A DNA stretch of 64,000 bases from Flagellimonas maritima. GTDB taxonomy: Bacteria > Bacteroidota > Bacteroidia > Flavobacteriales > Flavobacteriaceae. Below the pieces are notes generated by a model. It worked only from the letters and a program-made list of their open reading frames with translations. It did not search any database and had not been told where the DNA came from. Shown here in pieces: positions 1 through 20,107 of the stretch. How positions within the stretch are numbered: position 1 is the first letter of the stretch; each line of letters begins with the position of its first letter. The DNA is taken from the NCBI RefSeq assembly GCF_003269425.1, contig NZ_CP030104.1, forward strand, positions 186,001 to 250,000, in the 5' to 3' direction. The position numbers were made by a program, and so were the translations under genes.

Positions 1-957
1 ATTACCAAAAAACAATAAATTTACTTTCTTGCTTTTTACATCTTCTTTTGTAAACTCCCCACTTGTAACATTTGGTCTAGTTGCCATGATGGACATTACC
101 ATAGCAGCAATACAAAATATTATAAAAATAAAGGTTGGGTAGATCAAATACGAATTGGTGGGATTATCGAGTTTAGGAATCAAGTTTGCCAACGCCAAGG
201 ATATGATTATTGCATTTACAGAGAGTAGGATATTGGCTTTGGTGTCGGCAATATCACTCAACTTTATATGGTTTCGTAAGGTTACCCTATAGAGCGTCTG
301 CACTCCCCTATCAACAATCTTTCCTTTAAATTTGGCTTTCAGTTTTTCTTTTCGGACCAGTTTCTTTCCCTTTTTTTTGGCCTTCACCAATTTTTTTAGG
401 TTCGTCTTTTTTTGTGGACCCCAATTTTCAATTGCATAATCTGTATAGAACTGGTGTTTGCTTCTGAAGAGATACAATTGGTTTTTTCGCCATTCTGATA
501 AAGAAATATCTTCATCCCTCAAATTTTGAAGCTCTTCTCGCCATAATTCTGAGAGTAATCTATAATCTTCCCCACCCAAAAAAGAGTATTGGATATCGCT
601 AATGATTTCCTCCATCTTGTTATTTGGGATTTCGTCATTATCTGTAAAAAGTAACAGACTTTCAAGGGTTTTTAACTCGTTGTCGGTGTATTTTTTTGTT
701 TTTAGGAACAGCTGTAGCTGTTGAATCGAAGAATAGATATCCAGACCGTTCTTTAATAAATGGATATCCATAAAAAGAACAACAAGGTATATTGATTCTT
801 TTTCTTTCTTTTCAAGCGCTGTAGTCTCCAACAAATCATCTGCATTATCAAGCAATCTCGATTTTAATTCCCAATTGCGAAATAACAGGCCGTCTTTTCT
901 AGACTCTTCGTAAAGCTGTTTAATATGTAATTTGGCTTCTTCTACAATATTGTCCAT
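1..957 (-). CDS. Pycsar-effector-like protein (degenerate HD + DUF5706/PycTM), partial
   Basis: This reading frame is open from an ATG at 957 to the window edge (319 codons, no stop), so the C-terminus is missing. Residues about 1-75 align by eye to the N-terminus of HD phosphohydrolases of this family. The usual YHN..EH..T and HD positions read FRNWELK (26-32) and MD (63-64), so the metal-binding histidines appear lost. A very basic linker (about 180-210) leads to DTKANILLSVNAIIIS (238-253), typical of DUF5706/PycTM, with membrane helices at about 243-260 and 271-291. In Pycsar defence, PycTM-type effectors disrupt the membrane on sensing cyclic nucleotides; HD-DUF5706 proteins are also common chromosomal genes in flavobacteria, so a defence role here is inference. 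The start lies 50 bp after the poxB-like gene, suggesting co-transcription. Confidence 0.75.
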   Translation of the reverse strand, partial: MDNIVEEAKLHIKQLYEESRKDGLLFRNWELKSRLLDNADDLLETTALEKKEKESIYLVVLFMDIHLLKNGLDIYSSIQQLQLFLKTKKYTDNELKTLESLLLFTDNDEIPNNKMEEIISDIQYSFLGGEDYRLLSELWREELQNLRDEDISLSEWRKNQLYLFRSKHQFYTDYAIENWGPQKKTNLKKLVKAKKKGKKLVRKEKLKAKFKGKIVDRGVQTLYRVTLRNHIKLSDIADTKANILLSVNAIIISLALANLIPKLDNPTNSYLIYPTFIFIIFCIAAMVMSIMATRPNVTSGEFTKEDVKSKKVNLLFFGN

Positions 958-1007: not shown

Positions 1008-2747
1008 CTAATCAAAATATGATTCAATCTCTTTTTTAATATTATCCCATTGTGCCCTATCCCCTTTTAAGGCCCTCCACAATTCTTTTGTTTTGGAAAC
1101 GCCAAAGTTAACGGCATGTTCCAATTCAATCTTGGGCGGAAGTGCAAGTTCTCCACTAGTGACCACAGCATTGATAATAAAAGGCAATTTTGAGTTTTTT
1201 GCCCTTATCACAGCATCATGGACCTGATCCGCTTCGCTTATGGTTATTCCGTCTCCTCCACAAAGTTTTGCATAAGCGGCAAAATCTATATTATTAACTG
1301 CCAATGCATCCAGATTTGGAGCCAGCCCCGCTTCTTCCATTTCAATTTTAACAAAACCTAACTCTGAGTTATTGAAAATGATGATTTTAATGGGTAATTT
1401 ATAGGTGACCGCAGTTTTAAAGTCATGCATTGACATATTGAAGGCTCCGTCCCCGACCATTGCCCAAACTTCTCTCTTGGGAAATTGTAGTTGTGCACCA
1501 ATAGCCGCAGGAAGCCCCACTGCCATAGAGCCATGATTGAAGGAACCTATAATCCTACGTCCAGAGTGGAAATTCATGATATTGGAAGACCATATGGCAG
1601 AAGTCCCTGTATCTATGGTAAAAATAGCATCATCACTGGCCAGGTCACTAACAGATTTAGCAACTATCTGGGGGTGTGTAGGTGACATCTCCCTGTCCGT
1701 GCTGCCTTTTTCATGCATGTTGTTTTTCCATGTTCTGAAATTTTCGTTCAATGAATTAAGCCACGAACCATCTTCTTTTGCATGTATCAATTTTCTTAAT
1801 TGGGGGATTACAGAAACTATATCGCCGTGTATACCCAAATCTATAGGTGTTCTATTGCCTATATTTTCTTCCCTTTTATCAATTTGGATTATTTTGGTAT
1901 TTTTTGGTAAGTAGTTTGTATAAGGAAAGTCAGTACCAAGCATCAATAATAGGTCACAGTCCATTACTGCTTCGTAGCCTGATTTGTTTCCTATCAATCC
2001 CGTTAGACCGACTACATTTTTAGTGCTATGATCAAAGATGTCCGATGATCTTAAAGAATGGGTAATGGGAGCTTTTATATGTTCTGAAAGTTCTAGAACA
2101 TCAGCTCTTGCTTCTCTACAACCTGCACCGGCCAAAATTCCAACTTTCTCAGCAGTATTTATCATTTTTGAGGCTTCCAATAAGTATTCGCTGCTTGGCA
2201 CGGTCAATGATTTGGAACGAAAGACTTTATGAACGAAGAATTCATTTTCAGCTTTCATAAAAGCGATGTCGGATGGGAGTTCTACCCTACAGACACAGTT
2301 TTTATTGACTGCTATTCTAATTGCCCTGAGAATTACCCTTGGTGCTTCTTCAGGGGAACGTACTACAGCTTGATATTCACAAATGTCATCAAATATTTTC
2401 GTCAAGTCCGCTTCTTGGTGGTATGCTGTTCCTAAATGCTCAATGGGTATCTGTCCGGTAATCGCCAAAACTGGGGAACGCTCTTTTTTTGCATTGTAAA
2501 GACCATTGACCAAATGTAATGCTCCAGGACCGACCGTACTTGCACAAACTCCAAAGTTGTTACCCAATTCCCCTTGCGCAAAGGCCGCATAAGAAGCATT
2601 GCCTTCATGATTGACTCCAATCCATTTTACATCATCCTGCTTTGCAATAGCATCAACCAATGGATTCAAAGCATCGCCTGCTACACCGAATATGTGTTTT
2701 ACACCTTCGTTTTTTAATATCTGTAATAATTGATCCGATACGTTCAT
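1008..2747 (-). CDS. poxB: Pyruvate dehydrogenase (quinone)/pyruvate oxidase-type ThDP enzyme
   Basis: This 579-aa protein has the three-domain layout of thiamine-diphosphate decarboxylases/oxidases. The N-terminal PYR domain carries the cofactor-activating glutamate in VNHEGNASYA (E48). A central FAD/Rossmann-like domain spans about 190-340. The C-terminal PP domain has the ThDP-Mg motif GDGAFN (432-437) and the downstream Asn pair (459-460). Length and motifs fit PoxB, which oxidatively decarboxylates pyruvate to acetate and CO2 and passes electrons to quinones at the inner membrane. Acetolactate synthase is the main alternative but is less likely because no small subunit or branched-chain genes are nearby. 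The start is 9 bp after the stop of the upstream 1239-aa gene, so the two are probably co-transcribed. Confidence 0.85.
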   Translation of the reverse strand: MNVSDQLLQILKNEGVKHIFGVAGDALNPLVDAIAKQDDVKWIGVNHEGNASYAAFAQGELGNNFGVCASTVGPGALHLVNGLYNAKKERSPVLAITGQIPIEHLGTAYHQEADLTKIFDDICEYQAVVRSPEEAPRVILRAIRIAVNKNCVCRVELPSDIAFMKAENEFFVHKVFRSKSLTVPSSEYLLEASKMINTAEKVGILAGAGCREARADVLELSEHIKAPITHSLRSSDIFDHSTKNVVGLTGLIGNKSGYEAVMDCDLLLMLGTDFPYTNYLPKNTKIIQIDKREENIGNRTPIDLGIHGDIVSVIPQLRKLIHAKEDGSWLNSLNENFRTWKNNMHEKGSTDREMSPTHPQIVAKSVSDLASDDAIFTIDTGTSAIWSSNIMNFHSGRRIIGSFNHGSMAVGLPAAIGAQLQFPKREVWAMVGDGAFNMSMHDFKTAVTYKLPIKIIIFNNSELGFVKIEMEEAGLAPNLDALAVNNIDFAAYAKLCGGDGITISEADQVHDAVIRAKNSKLPFIINAVVTSGELALPPKIELEHAVNFGVSKTKELWRALKGDRAQWDNIKKEIESYFD

Positions 2748-2756
2748 ACTTATTAT

Positions 2757-5700
2757 TTAAAAAGGGATTCCAAGACCTACCTGAAGTAGATTGGTCTCTC
2801 TTGAATTGAAATACCCTATCTGAAACTTTAGTGCTTTTAGACTACTGATCCAGAATCCTCCACCTTGCGATATATGCCAAACATTTGAATTGTCGTTTTC
2901 TACCCAAACCCTACCGTAATCAAATCCTCCATAAATACCGATGGTTACGGGGGAAACTGCAGTTATGTATCTTTTTAGGCGAAGTTTAAGGTCCGTACTC
3001 TGGAAGAAATAGGATTTACCTGAAAAACGTTCGTCCCTAAAGCCCCTTAATCCATTGTCCCCGCCAATTGAAGGTGCATGATAGAAAAAGAATTCATTAT
3101 TCCCAATGTTGGTCATTACTTTGGCGGTAGACCCCAGAACAAGGTCGCCAGATGGAATCAATTTATAGTCAAAGCCTACTCTTAAAGAAGCATAACCAAA
3201 TTTGTTGTTATCCGTATTTAAATTGTATTTATACCCTGCTGCAAAACCAAAATAAATTGCCTTGGTCGGGAAATCATCAGCATTGGTTCTGTCGTAATCA
3301 CCAGTTAATTCTGCTCCCAAAAATGTCTGATTCTCAAATATTTCGGGAGAAAAATTATCTGTATTGAAAAGCCTCTGGTCATTTTCATTTAACCGGAAAG
3401 ATTCTACGAGTCCCCTAAATCTTAGACTGTAGTAAGCCAAACCTACGCTGGCTTTAAGTTGTCTTAGCCTAGCCCTGTAAAAATCCCTGGTCAATTGATT
3501 CTCTTCGTTCACGGTCTCATTGCCGAATCCAAAAAAGTTTTTCGCAAACCTATCGCTTGTATAATAGCCATCGATCTCAAAATTCCATGAAGGAAATATA
3601 TTGCCAAAAACGCCTTTGTATTTGACTTCGGTAGCTTGAAAACCAAAATAGTAATTAGCTGCCAATTGATGCCTTTGTCTAAAAGAGTTTCCATTTATAC
3701 CATTTATGGTATAAGTATCGCTGAGGCCCAAAAACAGGCCATCATCTTGTCTAAAGCCAATATTTGGAACAAGTATGTTCATATTTGGTTTAAAATATCG
3801 CCAATGAAAGGAATTGGTTTTGTAGATGTCACTTATTTGTTTAGATGGAACTTGATCATTAAAAATGGTTTCTTCATGATTCCATTCGTAAACTTTTAGT
3901 CGTTTCTTATTTTTAATATTAAATTCATCTTCCCCGTAGCCTCCTACGATCCTGATTTTTATTTCATTGTCCCCGTTACCCCCAATATTGAATTCGTCAT
4001 CATCTCCAAGACCATAAAGCCAGATTTCCTTGGTTTCATCCTTATTGAATACCCGTTGATAAATTATTTCGTTTTTCTCATCGGACAGCAAACGTTTTAC
4101 TACGACCTCCGTTATACCGTCAGGCCTACGTTCAACTTCAAATAAATCATCCTTCTCTGTTCCGGTTATGGTCACTATCTTATTTAGGTATTCTGCATAT
4201 TGTTCGGCCGCTTCATCCAACATTTGAAGCCTTTTTTTCAAATTTTCCTTGATTTCTTCGATTGTTTCATCCCTTACTTCGGCTGGGAGTCTTTGAAAAG
4301 CTTTTTCTATGACCGCAGTTGTCAAATTCTTTTGAATCGCTTTCGCTTCATCTACCCAGACTTGTGTCCCGTGACTGTTCAATAATGCGCGGTCTAATTT
4401 TTGGCCTCCCATGTTCTGCCATTTTACATTATTGATATCCTCATCAAAAGTCTGCCACATTCTGCTGTTTGGAACAAAAAGTTTGATAAGGCCCATTGCG
4501 AATCCATCAAACTTGGGGAACACATTGTCCCTATCGCGAGGTATTGGCATGAACTCTTTTTCACCATCCCTTCCTTCATACTCTATCCATCTCCATTGAT
4601 CTTGGTGTCTATCCCAGTCCCCTATCAACATATCAAAAATTCTAGCTCTAATAAAGTTTTTTTGATCTACGGTATATGATTCATCGCTCTTGATTTTTTC
4701 CAGCATATCGGTAGTGCTTTCGTAATCTGTAACCTTCCCGGATTCATTTATTGTTCTTCTGTACCCTTTATAATTTGCCTGTTCTTCTGAAGGTCTACGC
4801 TCCACAAAATAAAGCTCATCACCAAAATTTTCATTGTACTCTTCCAAGGCGTCCTGCTTTGGGATATAGAACAGGTCATTGTCCGAATGGTTGACGCCAG
4901 CAGCCTTTGCCAATGGATTAACGGTCAATTGCATATAGGGATGTGCTGTGGTAAAGAAATCGGAAATTACCTTTTCTGCCCAAGTATCTTGATAGTCATC
5001 TTGATTGTAAGCAATTCCCGGAAGTTTGAATTTTAGAAATTTTAGTGCGTTTTTCCGTAAAGATCTCATTGAATATTGCCTACCCTGTTCATCTTCTAGC
5101 CTTAACGAGAAGGATTGGTGTCCTCCACCTTCCTTTACAACTTTTAATCCTCCATGCAGTGTATCCAAATAAGCCACGGGGGCAGTTACGGATTCACCAA
5201 AGTATTTTCGATAGCGTTCACCCCAAAGAAATTTATAAAAACCACTTTTTTCATAAGCTTTTGGGTCATCCAAAACCACGTCTTTAACGGTTTTCTTTTC
5301 AACTTTATCGTATTTTTTGATTGTGGTGTCTTTTTCCAGTTTTGGAAGAAGGTTTATTTGCACTTTTCCTTCCATATCATCTTCATTATAGAAAGTGGCT
5401 TTAGAGCTTCCATCATCAAAATATTCGAGCTTTACAAATCCCCTTGCTCCATAAGTATATTTACCTTCATACTCAAGCGTACCGCCTATGGCTGTGATTC
5501 TTTCTTTGGAAATATGTGTAGGACTTTTGCTTCCCAAAGAACCACTGATCAGTTGATGTATTCCACCACCATATAAATATTGCAGGTTTTCTTCATGCCC
5601 GGAAACAACGGTTACCCTTTCTGAAGATTGTGCCAAGGCAGTTACCAAAATACGGAGGTAGTTGTACCTTCTTGAATTTAAATGGTCTGGGTTAAACGAC

Positions 5701-6476
5701 CCTAAATCCATAACGGCCTCTTTGAGGGTTCCATAAACGGGAATTGGTTTTAAATGGTCGCCAATGGTCTGGTTTCCTGCATAAACACCGTTGCTAAAAA
5801 CTGGATGGTGCATTGCAATTACAATATTCTTTCCTTGGCCATCGTTAATGTAACCTTCCAGTTCTTCCATAAACCTTCTCCTGGTTACAATATCTGTACA
5901 TTTTTTATTGATATTCTCAATTCTGGACCAATTTGCAATAAACCATTTTGAATCTATCAAAATCAAATCCAAATCATCGTTGATTACTTTATGTTCTATA
6001 GGACAAGCATTTTCGGGAAAAAACGAGAGTCTATCATTATCCTTGTCTTTAATATAGTCTTCAATTTTTTCTACTTTTTTGCTATTGTAAGCCTTCCATT
6101 CATTGTTTCCCGGAATAAAGATTGTGTTCCCCAAAAATTCGCTTGTGATATTGAGATGTTTATCCATCAGCGATTTGTCCGCTTCCCAATTTCCCAGTTT
6201 TTCAGAAATATTATCACCTGTAAAAATGACGGTGCTCTTTGAGCCGGCAGATTTCAATTCTGATTGCAACTTTTGGTATAATTCGTCTGTGGGGGTCTCA
6301 GTAACATTTCCCATACCACCGGCAATAAAAAAAGTATGGTTCACTTTATTATTTATACTAAGGGTTGGTTCAAGATTTTTTTGTTGTTCTTTATAAGACG
6401 CACACCCTAAGAAAAGAATTGAAAAACTAACAAAAATTAAAAGTACTGAAGGAATCTTGCAGCGTTTGTTCAACAT
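2757..6476 (-). CDS. Outer-membrane lipoprotein: phosphoesterase-like, kinase-like and Omp85-type barrel domains
   Basis: This 1239-aa protein begins with a lipoprotein signal (lipobox LFLGC, Cys25). Residues about 45-310 resemble a calcineurin-like phosphoesterase: GDN (87-89), GNNE (123-126), HHP (223-225) and GHEENLQY (293-300). The first metal Asp (GGMG at 53-56), the His of GNHD and the last His of GHxH are replaced. Residues about 450-660 look kinase-like, with a Gly/Lys-rich segment (450-475), GDWDRHQDQW (619-628) and PRDRD (646-650), resembling the catalytic and metal-binding loops of CotH/Fam20/HipA-type kinases. The C-terminal third has repeated amphipathic strands, the Omp85 loop-6 signature GLRGFRDERF, and ends in Phe, so a BamA/TamA-type barrel is likely. 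Databases usually label such proteins metallophosphoesterase or BamA/TamA family protein. The biochemical role is unknown. Confidence 0.75.
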   Translation of the reverse strand: MLNKRCKIPSVLLIFVSFSILFLGCASYKEQQKNLEPTLSINNKVNHTFFIAGGMGNVTETPTDELYQKLQSELKSAGSKSTVIFTGDNISEKLGNWEADKSLMDKHLNITSEFLGNTIFIPGNNEWKAYNSKKVEKIEDYIKDKDNDRLSFFPENACPIEHKVINDDLDLILIDSKWFIANWSRIENINKKCTDIVTRRRFMEELEGYINDGQGKNIVIAMHHPVFSNGVYAGNQTIGDHLKPIPVYGTLKEAVMDLGSFNPDHLNSRRYNYLRILVTALAQSSERVTVVSGHEENLQYLYGGGIHQLISGSLGSKSPTHISKERITAIGGTLEYEGKYTYGARGFVKLEYFDDGSSKATFYNEDDMEGKVQINLLPKLEKDTTIKKYDKVEKKTVKDVVLDDPKAYEKSGFYKFLWGERYRKYFGESVTAPVAYLDTLHGGLKVVKEGGGHQSFSLRLEDEQGRQYSMRSLRKNALKFLKFKLPGIAYNQDDYQDTWAEKVISDFFTTAHPYMQLTVNPLAKAAGVNHSDNDLFYIPKQDALEEYNENFGDELYFVERRPSEEQANYKGYRRTINESGKVTDYESTTDMLEKIKSDESYTVDQKNFIRARIFDMLIGDWDRHQDQWRWIEYEGRDGEKEFMPIPRDRDNVFPKFDGFAMGLIKLFVPNSRMWQTFDEDINNVKWQNMGGQKLDRALLNSHGTQVWVDEAKAIQKNLTTAVIEKAFQRLPAEVRDETIEEIKENLKKRLQMLDEAAEQYAEYLNKIVTITGTEKDDLFEVERRPDGITEVVVKRLLSDEKNEIIYQRVFNKDETKEIWLYGLGDDDEFNIGGNGDNEIKIRIVGGYGEDEFNIKNKKRLKVYEWNHEETIFNDQVPSKQISDIYKTNSFHWRYFKPNMNILVPNIGFRQDDGLFLGLSDTYTINGINGNSFRQRHQLAANYYFGFQATEVKYKGVFGNIFPSWNFEIDGYYTSDRFAKNFFGFGNETVNEENQLTRDFYRARLRQLKASVGLAYYSLRFRGLVESFRLNENDQRLFNTDNFSPEIFENQTFLGAELTGDYDRTNADDFPTKAIYFGFAAGYKYNLNTDNNKFGYASLRVGFDYKLIPSGDLVLGSTAKVMTNIGNNEFFFYHAPSIGGDNGLRGFRDERFSGKSYFFQSTDLKLRLKRYITAVSPVTIGIYGGFDYGRVWVENDNSNVWHISQGGGFWISSLKALKFQIGYFNSRETNLLQVGLGIPF

Positions 6477-7788: not shown

Positions 7789-8826
7789 TTAGGCCACCGC
7801 TGACATTTGCTTTTTATTATTTTTCACCTCACTGGGACTTAAAGCATATTTTTCTTTAAAAATTTTGGAGAAATAACTTCTACTTGTAAAACCTATCGTG
7901 TATACGATCTCTGAAATACTTAAATCAGTATTGTTGATTAAGTCCCTGGAAACTTCTAATCTTGCGTTTCTTATAAATTCAGTAACGGTTTGACTGTAAA
8001 GCAATTTAAAGCCCTCTTGAAGTTTGGCCTGCGTAAGACCAGTATCCATAGATATAGTTTCCAATGTATAGGGCTTGGAAATATTCTTTTCTATATTTTT
8101 TGCGCAATTTCTAATAACCGCCAACTCTCTCTTTAATAGCGTTGTCGGTAATGGCTTATTGTTTACCTCTCTGTTATGTTGAAGCATGTGCATTGAGAGT
8201 ATTTGGTATACCAGACCTTGAATTTGCATAATTCTGATCATGCCTTTCCCTTTAACAGTTCTTAGAGCACTGATTTTGTCAGCTAATTTTAGATTATAGG
8301 TGCCAAAATATGAAAACACCTTTTCATGGTCCGTATCAAGAAATACACTATATAATTTCTGATTGAGTTCTTCGCCTTGATTTAAACGTTTGCGCAAGAA
8401 GGGTTTTCGTGCTATTTGAATCACATTGATTGCCAATTTTAAATCCTTTGGAAAGTAACCATAATTATAATCTCCATCTCTACTGGTTATAATTACTGAT
8501 TGGTACTGTTCTAAAATTTTGATTTCCTCATCGCGTTGAAAACCGAATTTATGGGCACAATAACCTTCTAAACAATATGAGAAATGTATGGGATTAAATT
8601 TAGAGGTGTTCATTATCAATGTAACCTCTTTGTAAAAAGTGATATCGTATTCCAATAAACTAACGCCCCAATCAAATGTTATGAACCGTATATTTCCCGA
8701 AGCATTTTCATTTTCAATATTTAAGGTATACTCACCCCAACGTTCAACAATTTGACCACCAATTTTGTCGCGTATCTGCTTAACTGTTCCTTCAGTATCC
8801 TCAGCATCAATTTTGATAGTAATCAT
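7789..8826 (-). CDS. AraC-family transcriptional regulator (paralog 1)
   Basis: This 345-aa protein has a C-terminal double helix-turn-helix of the AraC/XylS type (about 235-335). It includes the conserved second-helix and recognition block TDLSISEIVYTIGFTSRSYF followed by SKIFKEKYALSPSE. The N-terminal about 200 residues carry a domain shared with three other regulators in this window, with the local pattern RFITFDWGVSLLEYDITF. It resembles a degenerate cupin-like sensor, but no ligand could be deduced. The gene converges on the YtxH operon, separated by only 6 bp. The adjacent envelope-stress genes make a stress-responsive role plausible, not demonstrated. Confidence 0.85.
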   Translation of the reverse strand: MITIKIDAEDTEGTVKQIRDKIGGQIVERWGEYTLNIENENASGNIRFITFDWGVSLLEYDITFYKEVTLIMNTSKFNPIHFSYCLEGYCAHKFGFQRDEEIKILEQYQSVIITSRDGDYNYGYFPKDLKLAINVIQIARKPFLRKRLNQGEELNQKLYSVFLDTDHEKVFSYFGTYNLKLADKISALRTVKGKGMIRIMQIQGLVYQILSMHMLQHNREVNNKPLPTTLLKRELAVIRNCAKNIEKNISKPYTLETISMDTGLTQAKLQEGFKLLYSQTVTEFIRNARLEVSRDLINNTDLSISEIVYTIGFTSRSYFSKIFKEKYALSPSEVKNNKKQMSAVA

Positions 8827-15916: not shown

Positions 15917-16960
15917 CTAATCATGTTGCTCCGAAACCTCACTTGACATACGTATATTGAGTTTCGATTTATATTCTTTTGGATTGCACTTATATTTTGC
16001 CTTAAAGATTTTACAAAAATAGCTTCTGCTGGTTAACCCAACCGAATAAACAACTTCAGAAATGTTCATATCCGTATTTTTTATAAGTGCTTCCGCTTTT
16101 TCCAAACGGGTGTTTCTAATAAAATCGGATACGGTTCTGTTGTATAGAAACTTAAACCCTTCTTGGAGTTTGGCGGCAGATAGACTAGACCTTAAACAAA
16201 GCTTATCAATTGTAAAACACATTTCAGGATTTTCCTGTATATGTTTGGCAACATCCATTATCTTGACCAATTCCCGCTTTATTAATTTTGTTGGATTGAC
16301 CACACCGCTGATTTCCCTTTTATACTGCTCAATGTGACTGGCCAGAATTAATACACAGATACCTTCAAAGTAAAGCAATTCGGAAAGTGAATCAGCATAT
16401 TTTGCCTTGCCAAGTTTTTTAATGTAGTCCGCAATATCGAGATTCATTTTACCCAAATGGACCATATGGTGCTTACTGTTGAGTTCGGAAAGAAAGCTTT
16501 TAAACTTTTGCGCTATAAAAGTAGGATTGTTGTTATGTTTTTCAAAATAGGTTTTTACATCTACCCTAAGCAAATTCAATGTAATATCAGAATTGGGTTT
16601 GAGTATCAGGCCTCCGGTAAAACCATTGGTAGTCTTTATGATTGCCGTTTGCAGCTCGTTGAGCTTGACCAAATGGTTATTGTGGTGGGCCGTATAAAAA
16701 CAATCGCCTTCAAAACAATATAAAAAGTATATGGATTGGTCGTTTTCAGACACAAGCCCCAGATAAGTATCCTCTTTAAGATGCACATTAAACTCCATCA
16801 TAAAGAGACCATCATCGAAATTGATACATTTTACTTCTCCCCTACCGATACCATCGGCAAGTTTTAAAATATTCGTATCATTCTCTTGCTGAACTTCACC
16901 TTTCAAATTCAATGAAAGCCGATTCAACTCTTTGTAGGCACGTTGTTTTCTTTTTTCCAT
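15917..16960 (-). CDS. AraC-family transcriptional regulator (paralog 2)
   Basis: This 347-aa regulator has an AraC-type C-terminus: the first HTH is near FTIDKLCLRSSLSAAKLQ, the second contains ISEVVYSVGLTSRSYF and KIFKAKYKCNPKEYKSK. It shares with the other three regulators the N-terminal segment (KCINFDDGLFMMEFNVHL) and the YFLYCFEGDC motif. It is more diverged in the sensing domain than paralogs 1 and 3, with an Asp-Gly pair replacing the Trp-Gly of the FDWG motif. It is oriented towards the small-protein genes and ends 60 bp from the REP-like hairpin. Target genes are unknown. Confidence 0.83.
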   Translation of the reverse strand: MEKRKQRAYKELNRLSLNLKGEVQQENDTNILKLADGIGRGEVKCINFDDGLFMMEFNVHLKEDTYLGLVSENDQSIYFLYCFEGDCFYTAHHNNHLVKLNELQTAIIKTTNGFTGGLILKPNSDITLNLLRVDVKTYFEKHNNNPTFIAQKFKSFLSELNSKHHMVHLGKMNLDIADYIKKLGKAKYADSLSELLYFEGICVLILASHIEQYKREISGVVNPTKLIKRELVKIMDVAKHIQENPEMCFTIDKLCLRSSLSAAKLQEGFKFLYNRTVSDFIRNTRLEKAEALIKNTDMNISEVVYSVGLTSRSYFCKIFKAKYKCNPKEYKSKLNIRMSSEVSEQHD

Positions 16961-17189: not shown

Positions 17190-17909
17190 ATGTATCATAG
17201 ACTTTCAAATGCTGCAGATAGAGAAGAGATGGAGAGAGTATTTGGACTTAAATTTAAATACCCAAAATTATATTCGCCCAACATGATTATTGATGGAATG
17301 ACGGAATCCATTCTTTCCGTTATAACCATGCAGGATTCAGAACATATAAATTATGCCATATGGGGATTGATGCCCGATGATTATAAAGAGGATTGGAAAA
17401 TTTTTCAGAATGGAATGAATACACTAAATATAAATGTGGCAAAACTCAGTTCCATTAAATGGATGAAAAATTTACTGATGTTCAAAAGATCTCTGGTGTT
17501 GGTATCTGGATTCTTCACATATTTCTTAAAAAAAGGGAAGCTATACCCATATTATGTAAGTTCTGTAGACCAAAAGCCTTTTTGTATTGCAGGAATCTAT
17601 AGCACGCTTGATGACGGTTTTCTCAGTTGCTCCATAATTACTACCAAGACAGATAAATTCATTGCCAATTACCACAACTTGCACAATGAGAAACCTTTGC
17701 TGATACCAAGCGATGTGAAAGATTTATGGCTTTCCGAATCAACGGAAACAGATTTAGTGAACGATATCATCAAAAATCCACCAGCTATGGAATTGCGTGC
17801 CGATCCCATAGCTGGTGAATTTTTTAAAAAAAACATTGTTTATGATAGTCTGTTAAACCCTGTATATTATGAAGGGATACCTGGCGGAAACACTTCCTCT
17901 AAATTTTAG
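17190..17909 (+). CDS. Degenerate SRAP (HMCES/YedK-like) protein
   Basis: The ATG at 17190 gives a 239-aa protein starting MYHRLSN, aligning with the MCxR start of SRAP proteins; the alternative TTG at 17169 only adds seven residues. The fold markers are recognisable: NYAIWGLMP (for xxGLIPxW), NTLNINVAKL (for TLNARSET), LVLVSGFFTYF (for CLIPVSGFFEW), PFCIAGIYSTL and NYHNLHNEKPLLIP (for xIHNxxxRMPVIL). However, the crosslinking Cys2 is Tyr and the catalytic Glu of the GF(F/Y)EW motif is Thr, while the Asn and His positions remain. SRAP enzymes trap abasic sites in single-stranded DNA via Cys2. This copy is probably unable to do so and may be a DNA-binding pseudoenzyme. Its 3' end overlaps the convergent AraC gene by 11 bp. 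Confidence 0.75.
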   Translation: MYHRLSNAADREEMERVFGLKFKYPKLYSPNMIIDGMTESILSVITMQDSEHINYAIWGLMPDDYKEDWKIFQNGMNTLNINVAKLSSIKWMKNLLMFKRSLVLVSGFFTYFLKKGKLYPYYVSSVDQKPFCIAGIYSTLDDGFLSCSIITTKTDKFIANYHNLHNEKPLLIPSDVKDLWLSESTETDLVNDIIKNPPAMELRADPIAGEFFKKNIVYDSLLNPVYYEGIPGGNTSSKF

Positions 17910-18927
17910 CTCTTTTCAATAATTTCAAACGATATTCAGTTGGCGTAATGCCATAGGTTTCATGGAATATTTTTGAAAAATAACTACGGCTACTGATACC
18001 TATTTTATAGACAATCTCTGAAATTGAAAGTTCTGTATTTTTTAAATAGTCCCTGGAAATTTCCAATTTAAGGGTTTTGGAATACTCATTTACCGTTTTT
18101 CCATATAATACCTTAAAACCAATTTGAAGCTTTTTTGCGCTCAATCCAGATATGGAAGATAACGTTGCAATATTTAATGGCCCGGATATATTGTCCACCA
18201 TGTATTCCGCGAGCCGTTGTACCTTTTTAATATCTTCCCTGGCAAGAGATTCCGGCAAGGTCATGTTATTTTCAAACTTATGGTGCTCCAACAACTGCAT
18301 GGCCAATATAACATTTAATCTCCCTTCAATTCCCAAGGTCTTTATCATACCCTCATTGGTGTCTGAACGGATTTGTTTTACATAATCGGCAATTTCTAGA
18401 TTGTAGTTCCCCAGATGCTTAAAGGGAAGGCTAACAGTATCATCTTTAAAAATTGAACTAAGAACATCCCCCAAATACGCTAAATTGTTATTTTTCTTTT
18501 TAGCATATTTCTTTTTTAATATTTGAATAAAGTTCACCTTTACATTTACCCTATTTGGAAAAATAAATGTTTTCTTGGATTTCTTTTTAGGGGATATGAT
18601 AATATTTTGATATCGCTCAAGTGTAACAGATTCCTTTTCGATATCTTGTATATAATGAAGGTTTCCTTCTGTAATAAATATAAATTCTATGGGAGTATCA
18701 CCGTTGGTGATATGTACCAATTTTAAATCTTGATTAAAGTTTACATCGTAATCGATGAGCGAAACGCCCCAGTCAAAAGATATACTGCGAATTATGCCCT
18801 TGCCCAATTCATTGTCGAAAGTCAAGGTTCGCTCTCCCCATTTTTCTTCAAGAGTACCCCTTAAGATGACGTTTAGTTCATCCAATAAGGAGTCAACACT
18901 CTGATTTTCAATACGAATTTCTTGCAT
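17899..18927 (-). CDS. AraC-family transcriptional regulator (paralog 3)
   Basis: The start is set at the ATG at 18927 (MQEIRIENQSVDSL), since the 26 residues added by an upstream in-frame ATG do not match the paralogs. The 342-aa product has the shared N-terminal domain (RSISFDWGVSLIDYDVNF) and the C-terminal double HTH, with ISEIVYKIGISSRSYF and KIFHETYGITPTEYRLK. It resembles paralog 1 most closely by eye. The gene converges with the SRAP-like gene, overlapping its end by 11 bp, and lies 142 bp from paralog 4, which could reflect tandem duplication. Confidence 0.85.
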   Translation of the reverse strand: MQEIRIENQSVDSLLDELNVILRGTLEEKWGERTLTFDNELGKGIIRSISFDWGVSLIDYDVNFNQDLKLVHITNGDTPIEFIFITEGNLHYIQDIEKESVTLERYQNIIISPKKKSKKTFIFPNRVNVKVNFIQILKKKYAKKKNNNLAYLGDVLSSIFKDDTVSLPFKHLGNYNLEIADYVKQIRSDTNEGMIKTLGIEGRLNVILAMQLLEHHKFENNMTLPESLAREDIKKVQRLAEYMVDNISGPLNIATLSSISGLSAKKLQIGFKVLYGKTVNEYSKTLKLEISRDYLKNTELSISEIVYKIGISSRSYFSKIFHETYGITPTEYRLKLLKRAKI

Positions 18928-19069: not shown

Positions 19070-20107
19070 TTACGCAGATTTGTCTCCTTCAGAAGAGCGG
19101 TGCTTTGTAACATAATCTTTTGGAGAAATACCGAAACGTTCTTTAAAAAGCTTGGAAAAATAACTCCTTGAATTTATTCCGATTTTATAAGTGATTTCCG
19201 TTATGTTATCTTCAGTTGATTCAATCAAATCTTTTGCTTTGTCCATTCTAACCTCTTGAATGAACTGATTTACAGATTTATTATAGAGTTGTTTAAATCC
19301 TTCCTGTAATGTATTTTGGTTTAGTCCTACCCTTTTGGCCAAGGACAATATACTACCTAATTGAGCCATCTCCTCCTTTATAATGTTGCTCGCCTCCTCT
19401 ATTTTCTCTACTGTATTGATTCTTGGTATTTTCCGTCCGTTGGGGTCTCGACTATCATCCACATACTGCTTTAGAAAATGTGTCAGTATCTCAAAGACCT
19501 TACCCTCAAGAAAAACATATCGCATGAATCCCGTCAAGCTCGTGGTGGTGAACTCCTCCATAAATTGTGCAATATCCAGGCTGAAATATCCTTGATGGTA
19601 AAAAGGGTTTATACCGTTCACGTCCCTAAAAATATCTGAAAGGGGCGGTTTCATATCTTCTAAAAAATCATCGATTTTAGCTTCAAAATCTTTTCTGTTG
19701 AGAAGAATCAGAAAAAAGCACGTAGAATCCTGGTTGTTCAAAGTTAATGTTTGGGTACCTTTCAGCCCTTCAGAACTAATGACACTCTCAAGATGTTTAA
19801 TTGTCTTGCTTCCGCTTTCACTGCCTTCAAAGTTAACTTCATCCTCCCTATTGAATAGAATCAGTAAGGGCTGGACTGTCGCTTCTTCTAAAACGAGATG
19901 CAACACTTTAGACAATGTACAGTCAAACTCGTATACCGTAATACCATGGTCAAAATCATACGCCTTTATATAGCCATGTCCTATCTCTTCCGGTAAGTTT
20001 ATAGAAAATTCCCTGTTATCCTCGGCCCAGTCCGCGTTAAGGCTTGAAGCAATGGTAGCCATCATTTTTTGAGCGTGCTGATCCTTTATCTTAATTTTTT
20101 TAACCAC
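19070..20107 (-). CDS. AraC-family transcriptional regulator (paralog 4)
   Basis: This 345-aa protein has the AraC double-HTH C-terminus (ITEITYKIGINSRSYF, KLFKERFGISPKDYVTK). Its N-terminal domain retains KAYDFDHGITVYEFDCTL but is the most diverged of the four regulators, including an acidic insertion (REDEVNFEGSESGSK). The start ATG at 20107 is preceded by an A/T-rich region. It lies tandem to paralog 3 and faces away from the DUF1328 and acidic microprotein genes starting 195 bp upstream, which are possible divergent targets. Confidence 0.84.
   Translation of the reverse strand: MVKKIKIKDQHAQKMMATIASSLNADWAEDNREFSINLPEEIGHGYIKAYDFDHGITVYEFDCTLSKVLHLVLEEATVQPLLILFNREDEVNFEGSESGSKTIKHLESVISSEGLKGTQTLTLNNQDSTCFFLILLNRKDFEAKIDDFLEDMKPPLSDIFRDVNGINPFYHQGYFSLDIAQFMEEFTTTSLTGFMRYVFLEGKVFEILTHFLKQYVDDSRDPNGRKIPRINTVEKIEEASNIIKEEMAQLGSILSLAKRVGLNQNTLQEGFKQLYNKSVNQFIQEVRMDKAKDLIESTEDNITEITYKIGINSRSYFSKLFKERFGISPKDYVTKHRSSEGDKSA

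Follow-up and report, generated by a model that had tools for sequence, protein, structure and literature searches.

The window analysed here, 64,000 nucleotides of the Flagellimonas maritima genome (contig NZ_CP030104.1, positions 186,001 to 250,000), carries a gene for a 1239-residue predicted lipoprotein at 2757..6476, which is read on the minus strand from 6476 down to 2757. The preliminary description of this DNA had proposed the open reading frame and a three-part protein; the frame is borne out and assigned to the minus strand, the plus-strand frame being full of stops, and predicted folds support an architecture in which a phosphoesterase-like domain, a kinase-like domain and a beta linker are followed by an Omp85-type barrel. 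All parts of the protein lie on the same minus strand. The translation opens with a putative signal peptide with a lipobox-like LGC at Cys25 (residues 1–25; 6402..6476), continues into a purple-acid-phosphatase-like domain with a degenerate site (residues 40–380; 5337..6359) and a kinase-like domain (residues 395–785; 4122..5294), and passes through a beta-rich linker (residues 786–898; 3783..4121), the second half of which is predicted to hold short strands about 10 residues apart, to a TamA/BamA-type barrel (residues 899–1239; 2760..3782) called from Pfam, NCBIfam and the fold model. Sequence searches recognise little of this: Pfam reaches its cut-off solely at the barrel end (ShlB, 6.2e-05), NCBIfam places Omp85_fam at 9.9e-10, under its cut-off, and solved structures searched by sequence with the whole protein gave no match at E ≤ 1. 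We consider it somewhat probable that the family to which this protein belongs is an outer-membrane, envelope-facing enzyme with two activities, and that the window copy has specialised to the kinase-like half.

The N-terminal domain had been called a calcineurin-like phosphoesterase, a name that stands for the fold and fails for family membership and active site. Comparison of the predicted model returns a metallophosphoesterase or purple acid phosphatase fold (2bq8, 1ute), while the Pfam family Metallophos (PF00149) gives no match to the window copy even at E ≤ 10; the same family matches, at 3.6e-10, a second full-length copy in the same genome (locus L002, 40% identity), in which both the phosphatase and the kinase-like sites are kept. 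The phosphatase site DDNHHHH (D54, D88, N124, H125, H223, H294 and H296), whose positions we take to have the ligand roles of purple acid phosphatases, reads GDNNHHE in the window copy: D54G, H125N and H296E are changed in the alignment, and D88, N124, H223 and H294 are kept. Also absent is the tyrosine that relatives have directly after GDNI, a gap or a serine being aligned there, and four of the eight site residues considered (the seven scored and the tyrosine) are thus lost. Metal ligands and catalytic histidine are incomplete in the window copy and all present in its paralogue L002. By analogy with purple acid phosphatases, one metal site would be lost and the other (D88, N124, H223, H294) kept.

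These losses, and a patchy occurrence in which the family is present in 22 of 23 further same-genus genomes and a copy at least 55% identical to the window protein in just two (G004 and G022), would fit a mere decaying duplicate without a special role. We think this very improbable: the reading frame is intact, and GDNNHHE is shared by 12 non-identical copies, the window copy included. Judged by its sequence, the degenerate domain is not rotting, because its identity within the window clade of 11 copies (56.5%) is near that of the kinase-like domain (62.5%) and the barrel (61.0%); in 10 core copies the first two values are 63.1% and 66.4%.

The two motifs that suggested a kinase-like middle region, GDWDRHQDQW (residues 619–628; 4593..4622) and PRDRD (residues 646–650; 4527..4541), lie where the preliminary description had placed them. 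Residues D620–H624, Q627, W628, W630, P644 and D648–D650 are invariant in the window protein and 18 relatives, down to 27% identity, and this conservation together with the predicted fold rules out that the motifs arose by chance. The domain yields a confident model with an atypical kinase-like fold that matches CtkA, HipA, CotH, PI4K-II and Fam20, which supports the proposed kinase-like fold. Both motifs (model residues 225–234 and 252–256) flank a single predicted beta-hairpin (strands 234–240 and 246–252), the usual site of a catalytic and a metal loop, so that, judged by the fold and by their place along the predicted strands, neither a non-kinase fold nor a separation of GDWDRH from PRDRD is indicated, the two findings that would have spoken against the proposal. 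All 11 chosen kinase-like sites are kept in the window copy (glycine loop, Lys/Arg, Glu, catalytic DRH and metal Asp, each role assigned from the alignment), the glycine-rich loop being GGGHQSF (residues 450–456; 5109..5129). Comparison of profiles with CotH and HipA beats all 100 column shuffles and aligns the catalytic loop with both families and the metal loop with CotH.

By sequence, membership in CotH, HipA or Fam20C was rejected, each being below cut-off or unmatched, and no named Pfam kinase family is reached: Fam20C scores 17.1 bits on the window domain against a cut-off of 26.8 and matches seven of 72 middle-domain members at E ≤ 1 (best 8.7e-4), HipA_C scores 14 bits on the window copy against 30.5, and CotH gives no match there at E ≤ 10. 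A Fam20C search of 99 genomes found no match anywhere, its controls included, and is hence uninformative. Searched by sequence against solved structures, the middle-domain profile retrieves solely CtkA (0.18) and an esterase (0.33), and the PADLOC model PDC-M03A matches the kinase-like part at E 1e-6. The Pfam family matched by most middle-domain members, EnY2 (20 of 72, best 4.8e-4), was taken as a chance match on a helix.

The barrel is predicted to have 16 strands of Omp85 type and carries the (V/L)RGF motif of that superfamily within GLRGFRDERF (residues 1142–1151; 3024..3053; alignment of relatives), which we take to be the Omp85 loop-6-type motif. Its best fold match is TamA, and Pfam recognises no POTRA domain in the window protein, the linker (786–898) having been neither folded nor searched alone. 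According to Heinz & Lithgow 2014 (PMC4104836), the usual task of Omp85-type barrels is the assembly or movement of proteins, and this, like the TamA match, speaks for a different role of the middle domain, in which it would regulate a TamA-like insertase or translocase barrel by binding nucleotides, by transferring AMP or as a scaffold without catalysis. The lack of a POTRA domain recognised by Pfam argues against such a regulator, and catalysis is a better fit than scaffolding to catalytic-type residues that stay strictly conserved in relatives 27–60% identical to the window copy; we hold this role to be unlikely.

The family is widespread. Of 39 near genomes, counting the organism's own, 28 carry it; a search of 349 family-rank genomes with a full-length, kinase-degenerate relative finds it in 253, and the middle-domain profile matches 141 of 395 genomes of the phylum. 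Its modules also occur apart. In F. maritima itself, the middle domain stands alone with a hydrophobic N-terminus as a 426-residue protein about 12.5 kb past the window end (L003:1468-2748), and in two loci of one genus (L149, L150) the modules are three adjacent same-strand genes (kinase-like plus beta, 518–519 residues; PF00149, 403; PF01103, 388; Pfam run on L149 only). Kinase-like proteins exist with a barrel and no phosphatase (~850–920 residues) and without a barrel (~425 and 515–560 residues). Three loci (L141, L151, L156) hold neighbouring barrel-less kinase-like genes, at least one of them intact and one with D622S and H624R; these genes resemble kinase/pseudokinase-like pairs. Phosphatase-less forms with degenerate kinase-like sites are found in L153, in L290 and as one copy each in L141, L151 and L156.

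Among 206 non-identical full-length copies, both sites are intact in 129, the phosphatase is degenerate and the kinase-like site intact in 54, the reverse holds for 23, and none has lost both (Fisher p 7.7e-4, in a test that ignores descent), a statement of "never both lost" that is valid for the full-length form only. The count takes identical copies once and partial reading frames only if longer than 1150 residues, and leaves out the truncated L092 for its gaps. The class cut-offs, 6/7 for the phosphatase and 9/11 for the kinase-like site, were fixed after the site table was made; their exact choice makes little difference, as the values 5/7, 7/11 and 8/11 do not occur in any copy. The intact half is well kept in each class: all 54 phosphatase-degenerate copies retain 10 or 11 of 11 kinase-like sites, and 22 of the 23 kinase-degenerate copies retain 7/7 phosphatase sites, the other having six with a called start too late for the seventh. 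The first locus set was drawn by kinase-motif patterns, with 80 of 583 kept, so that kinase-degenerate copies are under-sampled; the family-rank search with a kinase-degenerate query scored at most two candidates per genome and took 20 places, the 17 best matches and three others.

More telling than the counts is the genomic arrangement: in 23/23 cases, the genome of a kinase-degenerate copy also holds a copy with a degenerate phosphatase and an intact kinase-like site. The partner is immediately adjacent in 21, one open reading frame of 211 residues apart in one (G504, L242) and elsewhere in the genome in one (G703; L246, L280). For 18 of the 23 the partner lies within the same fetched locus, and twin loci or pieces establish three further adjacent pairs: G770 (L070), G774 (the same copy as in L243) and G776 (L281), where the neighbouring copy comes as two frames, with 0/7 and, jointly, 10/11 sites. 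Six of the 20 loci (L234–L237, L239, L240) are triplets with a kinase-degenerate copy between two phosphatase-degenerate ones. Conversely, one copy with 7/7 phosphatase residues is kept under each of the 27 tested genome handles that have a phosphatase-degenerate copy; because G004 and G768 coincide, these handles stand for no more than 26 different genomes. That neighbouring duplicates lose opposite halves suggests, at the level of sequence, two real and separable activities. It is also possible, though we find it doubtful, that the two domains do not oppose each other and serve distinct reactions in the export or assembly of an envelope molecule through the barrel, the first enzyme being for instance a kinase of a lipid or glycan and the second hydrolysing a different phosphoester afterwards; both co-occurrence and reciprocal loss are in keeping with a common pathway and decide for neither opposing nor sequential steps.

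For the two-activity enzyme we propose a purple-acid-phosphatase-like hydrolase at a lipid-anchored N-terminus, next to it an atypical-kinase-like enzyme akin to PI4K-II, CotH and HipA, and a 16-strand Omp85-type barrel that would hold both. Acting as a transferase, the kinase-like part would most likely add phosphate, or a nucleotide, to an envelope substrate, and the phosphatase would act in the same pathway, possibly stripping off the group so added. The two activities need not share one polypeptide, as copies would divide them, and the phosphatase-like domain of the window copy may be retained as a structural or regulatory pseudo-enzyme. Predicted folds, motif conservation, the degeneration pattern, gene splits and neighbours are what the data show; catalysis, the opposition of the activities, an envelope substrate and the location are inferred. 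The phospho-switch first suggested for the window protein itself lacks support in that form, given the degenerate phosphatase site; judging from its residues, the paralogue carrying both sites could still be one. Only tentatively do we extend this to a reversible outer-membrane phosphorylation system with a non-cytoplasmic donor, which in some lineages would be split into cooperating half-active neighbours (a kinase with a pseudo-phosphatase domain next to a phosphatase with a pseudo-kinase domain) and would have an HD-PycTM membrane protein as partner.

Several observations weigh against a two-activity enzyme. Chief among them is the phosphate donor, because ATP is thought scarce outside the cytoplasm. 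Kinase-like folds also include pseudokinases, AMP-transferases and kinases of lipids or small molecules, and no activity is known to us for any family member. The 12 solved Foldseek matches of the middle domain at E ≤ 0.001 have TM-scores of only 0.28–0.53, and its links by sequence are weak: the profile comparison has hhalign probabilities of 6–8%, and the Fam20C match (residues 564–625, E 0.022) is sub-threshold. Kinase-degenerate copies may not be inactive, because all keep D622 and most keep D650. Finally, the degeneration counts are clustered by descent and independent events are few, so that the Fisher p-value is not to be leaned on: a barrel-only tree of 115 rows, quickly built, with long branches and before the loci from the kinase-degenerate query were added, gives one change for kinase loss and five for phosphatase loss (at least four by starred branches), one of the five resting on L095_8681, whose placement is unsure.

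The HD-PycTM neighbour is represented in the window by a homologue cut by its edge (1..957, minus strand), its domains having been called on the neighbour of the paralogue (L002:5269-6462). We observe that it fuses an HD domain to a Pycsar-effector-type membrane domain. Among the well-flanked loci of the set L062–L140 it recurs in 53 of 70, and among the loci L230–L249 in 19 of 20, including all 17 kinase-degenerate ones. Of 176 rows, 77 have it immediately adjacent, the flanks of many rows being short. Between it and the window gene, 9 bases downstream of the latter, lies a gene for a thiamine-pyrophosphate enzyme (1008..2747, minus strand; domain and similarity scans), which is probably not part of the conserved unit because it has no homologue in the compared loci, many with short flanks. 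Divergently upstream are a YtxH gene and a small membrane-protein gene, with relatives in five and six different loci of the window clade, respectively, and a beta-propeller lipoprotein is encoded nearby in L144 (SdiA-regulated, 1.3e-08) and L002 (0.0019, under cut-off). Farther along, four mutually related regulator genes fall within ~12 kb (7789-8826, 15917-16960, 17899-18927 and 19070-20065), the first AraC-type by Pfam and the other three matching the same relatives; the genes between them are presumably of stress type, some names being assumed from the sequence. The region 30719-63979 is an ordinary-looking glycan-use locus with GH125, GH92, three sulfatases, an ADP-ribosylglycohydrolase and two TonB-dependent receptors (eight genes scanned). 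Rfam and tRNA scans of the window found nothing.

The architecture had been thought undescribed, which holds in part. A PF00149 domain fused to an Omp85-type barrel is already known as the "Metallo" subfamily of the Omp85/TpsB superfamily, listed among POTRA-less architectures by Heinz & Lithgow 2014 (PMC4104836), whose main text regards the domain as a metalloprotease with a proposed role in proteolysis or virulence, describes genus-level conservation and uses the word "kinase" 0 times. The window family matches that description in its PF00149-type domain and Omp85 barrel; in contrast to "Metallo" as there described, it has a kinase-like middle third, is broad in Bacteroidota and has copies that lose either activity. 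PlpD-type patatin-Omp85 proteins, as far as their descriptions go, likewise place an enzyme domain N-terminal to an Omp85-type barrel, whereas the window family has different enzymes, a lipobox N-terminus and no recognised POTRA domain. The CotH spore-coat kinase (5jd9, 5jda) and HipA/CtkA lack the fused phosphatase-like domain and barrel, PI4-kinase type II (9hhm, 4pla) is a human lipid kinase at 11–12% identity, and the Fam20C/Fam20A secretory kinases differ in their accessory domains. A Riemerella metallophosphoesterase was not counted as part of the family, since a review lists it among the effectors of type IX secretion. In the full-text literature, with subscription papers mostly outside its scope, Heinz & Lithgow 2014 was the sole paper that we recognised as dealing with this family, and we recognised none on its kinase-like part.

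We know of no phosphate-transfer chemistry built into a bacterial outer-membrane barrel. Here, a family present in 253 of 349 family-rank genomes has a middle third that reaches no Pfam family cut-off, and the reciprocal loss of sites in neighbouring copies is evidence supplied by nature that each half has a genuine task which can be separated from the other. The window copy would then suit study of the kinase-like reaction alone, and the kinase-degenerate tandem partners that of the phosphatase alone.
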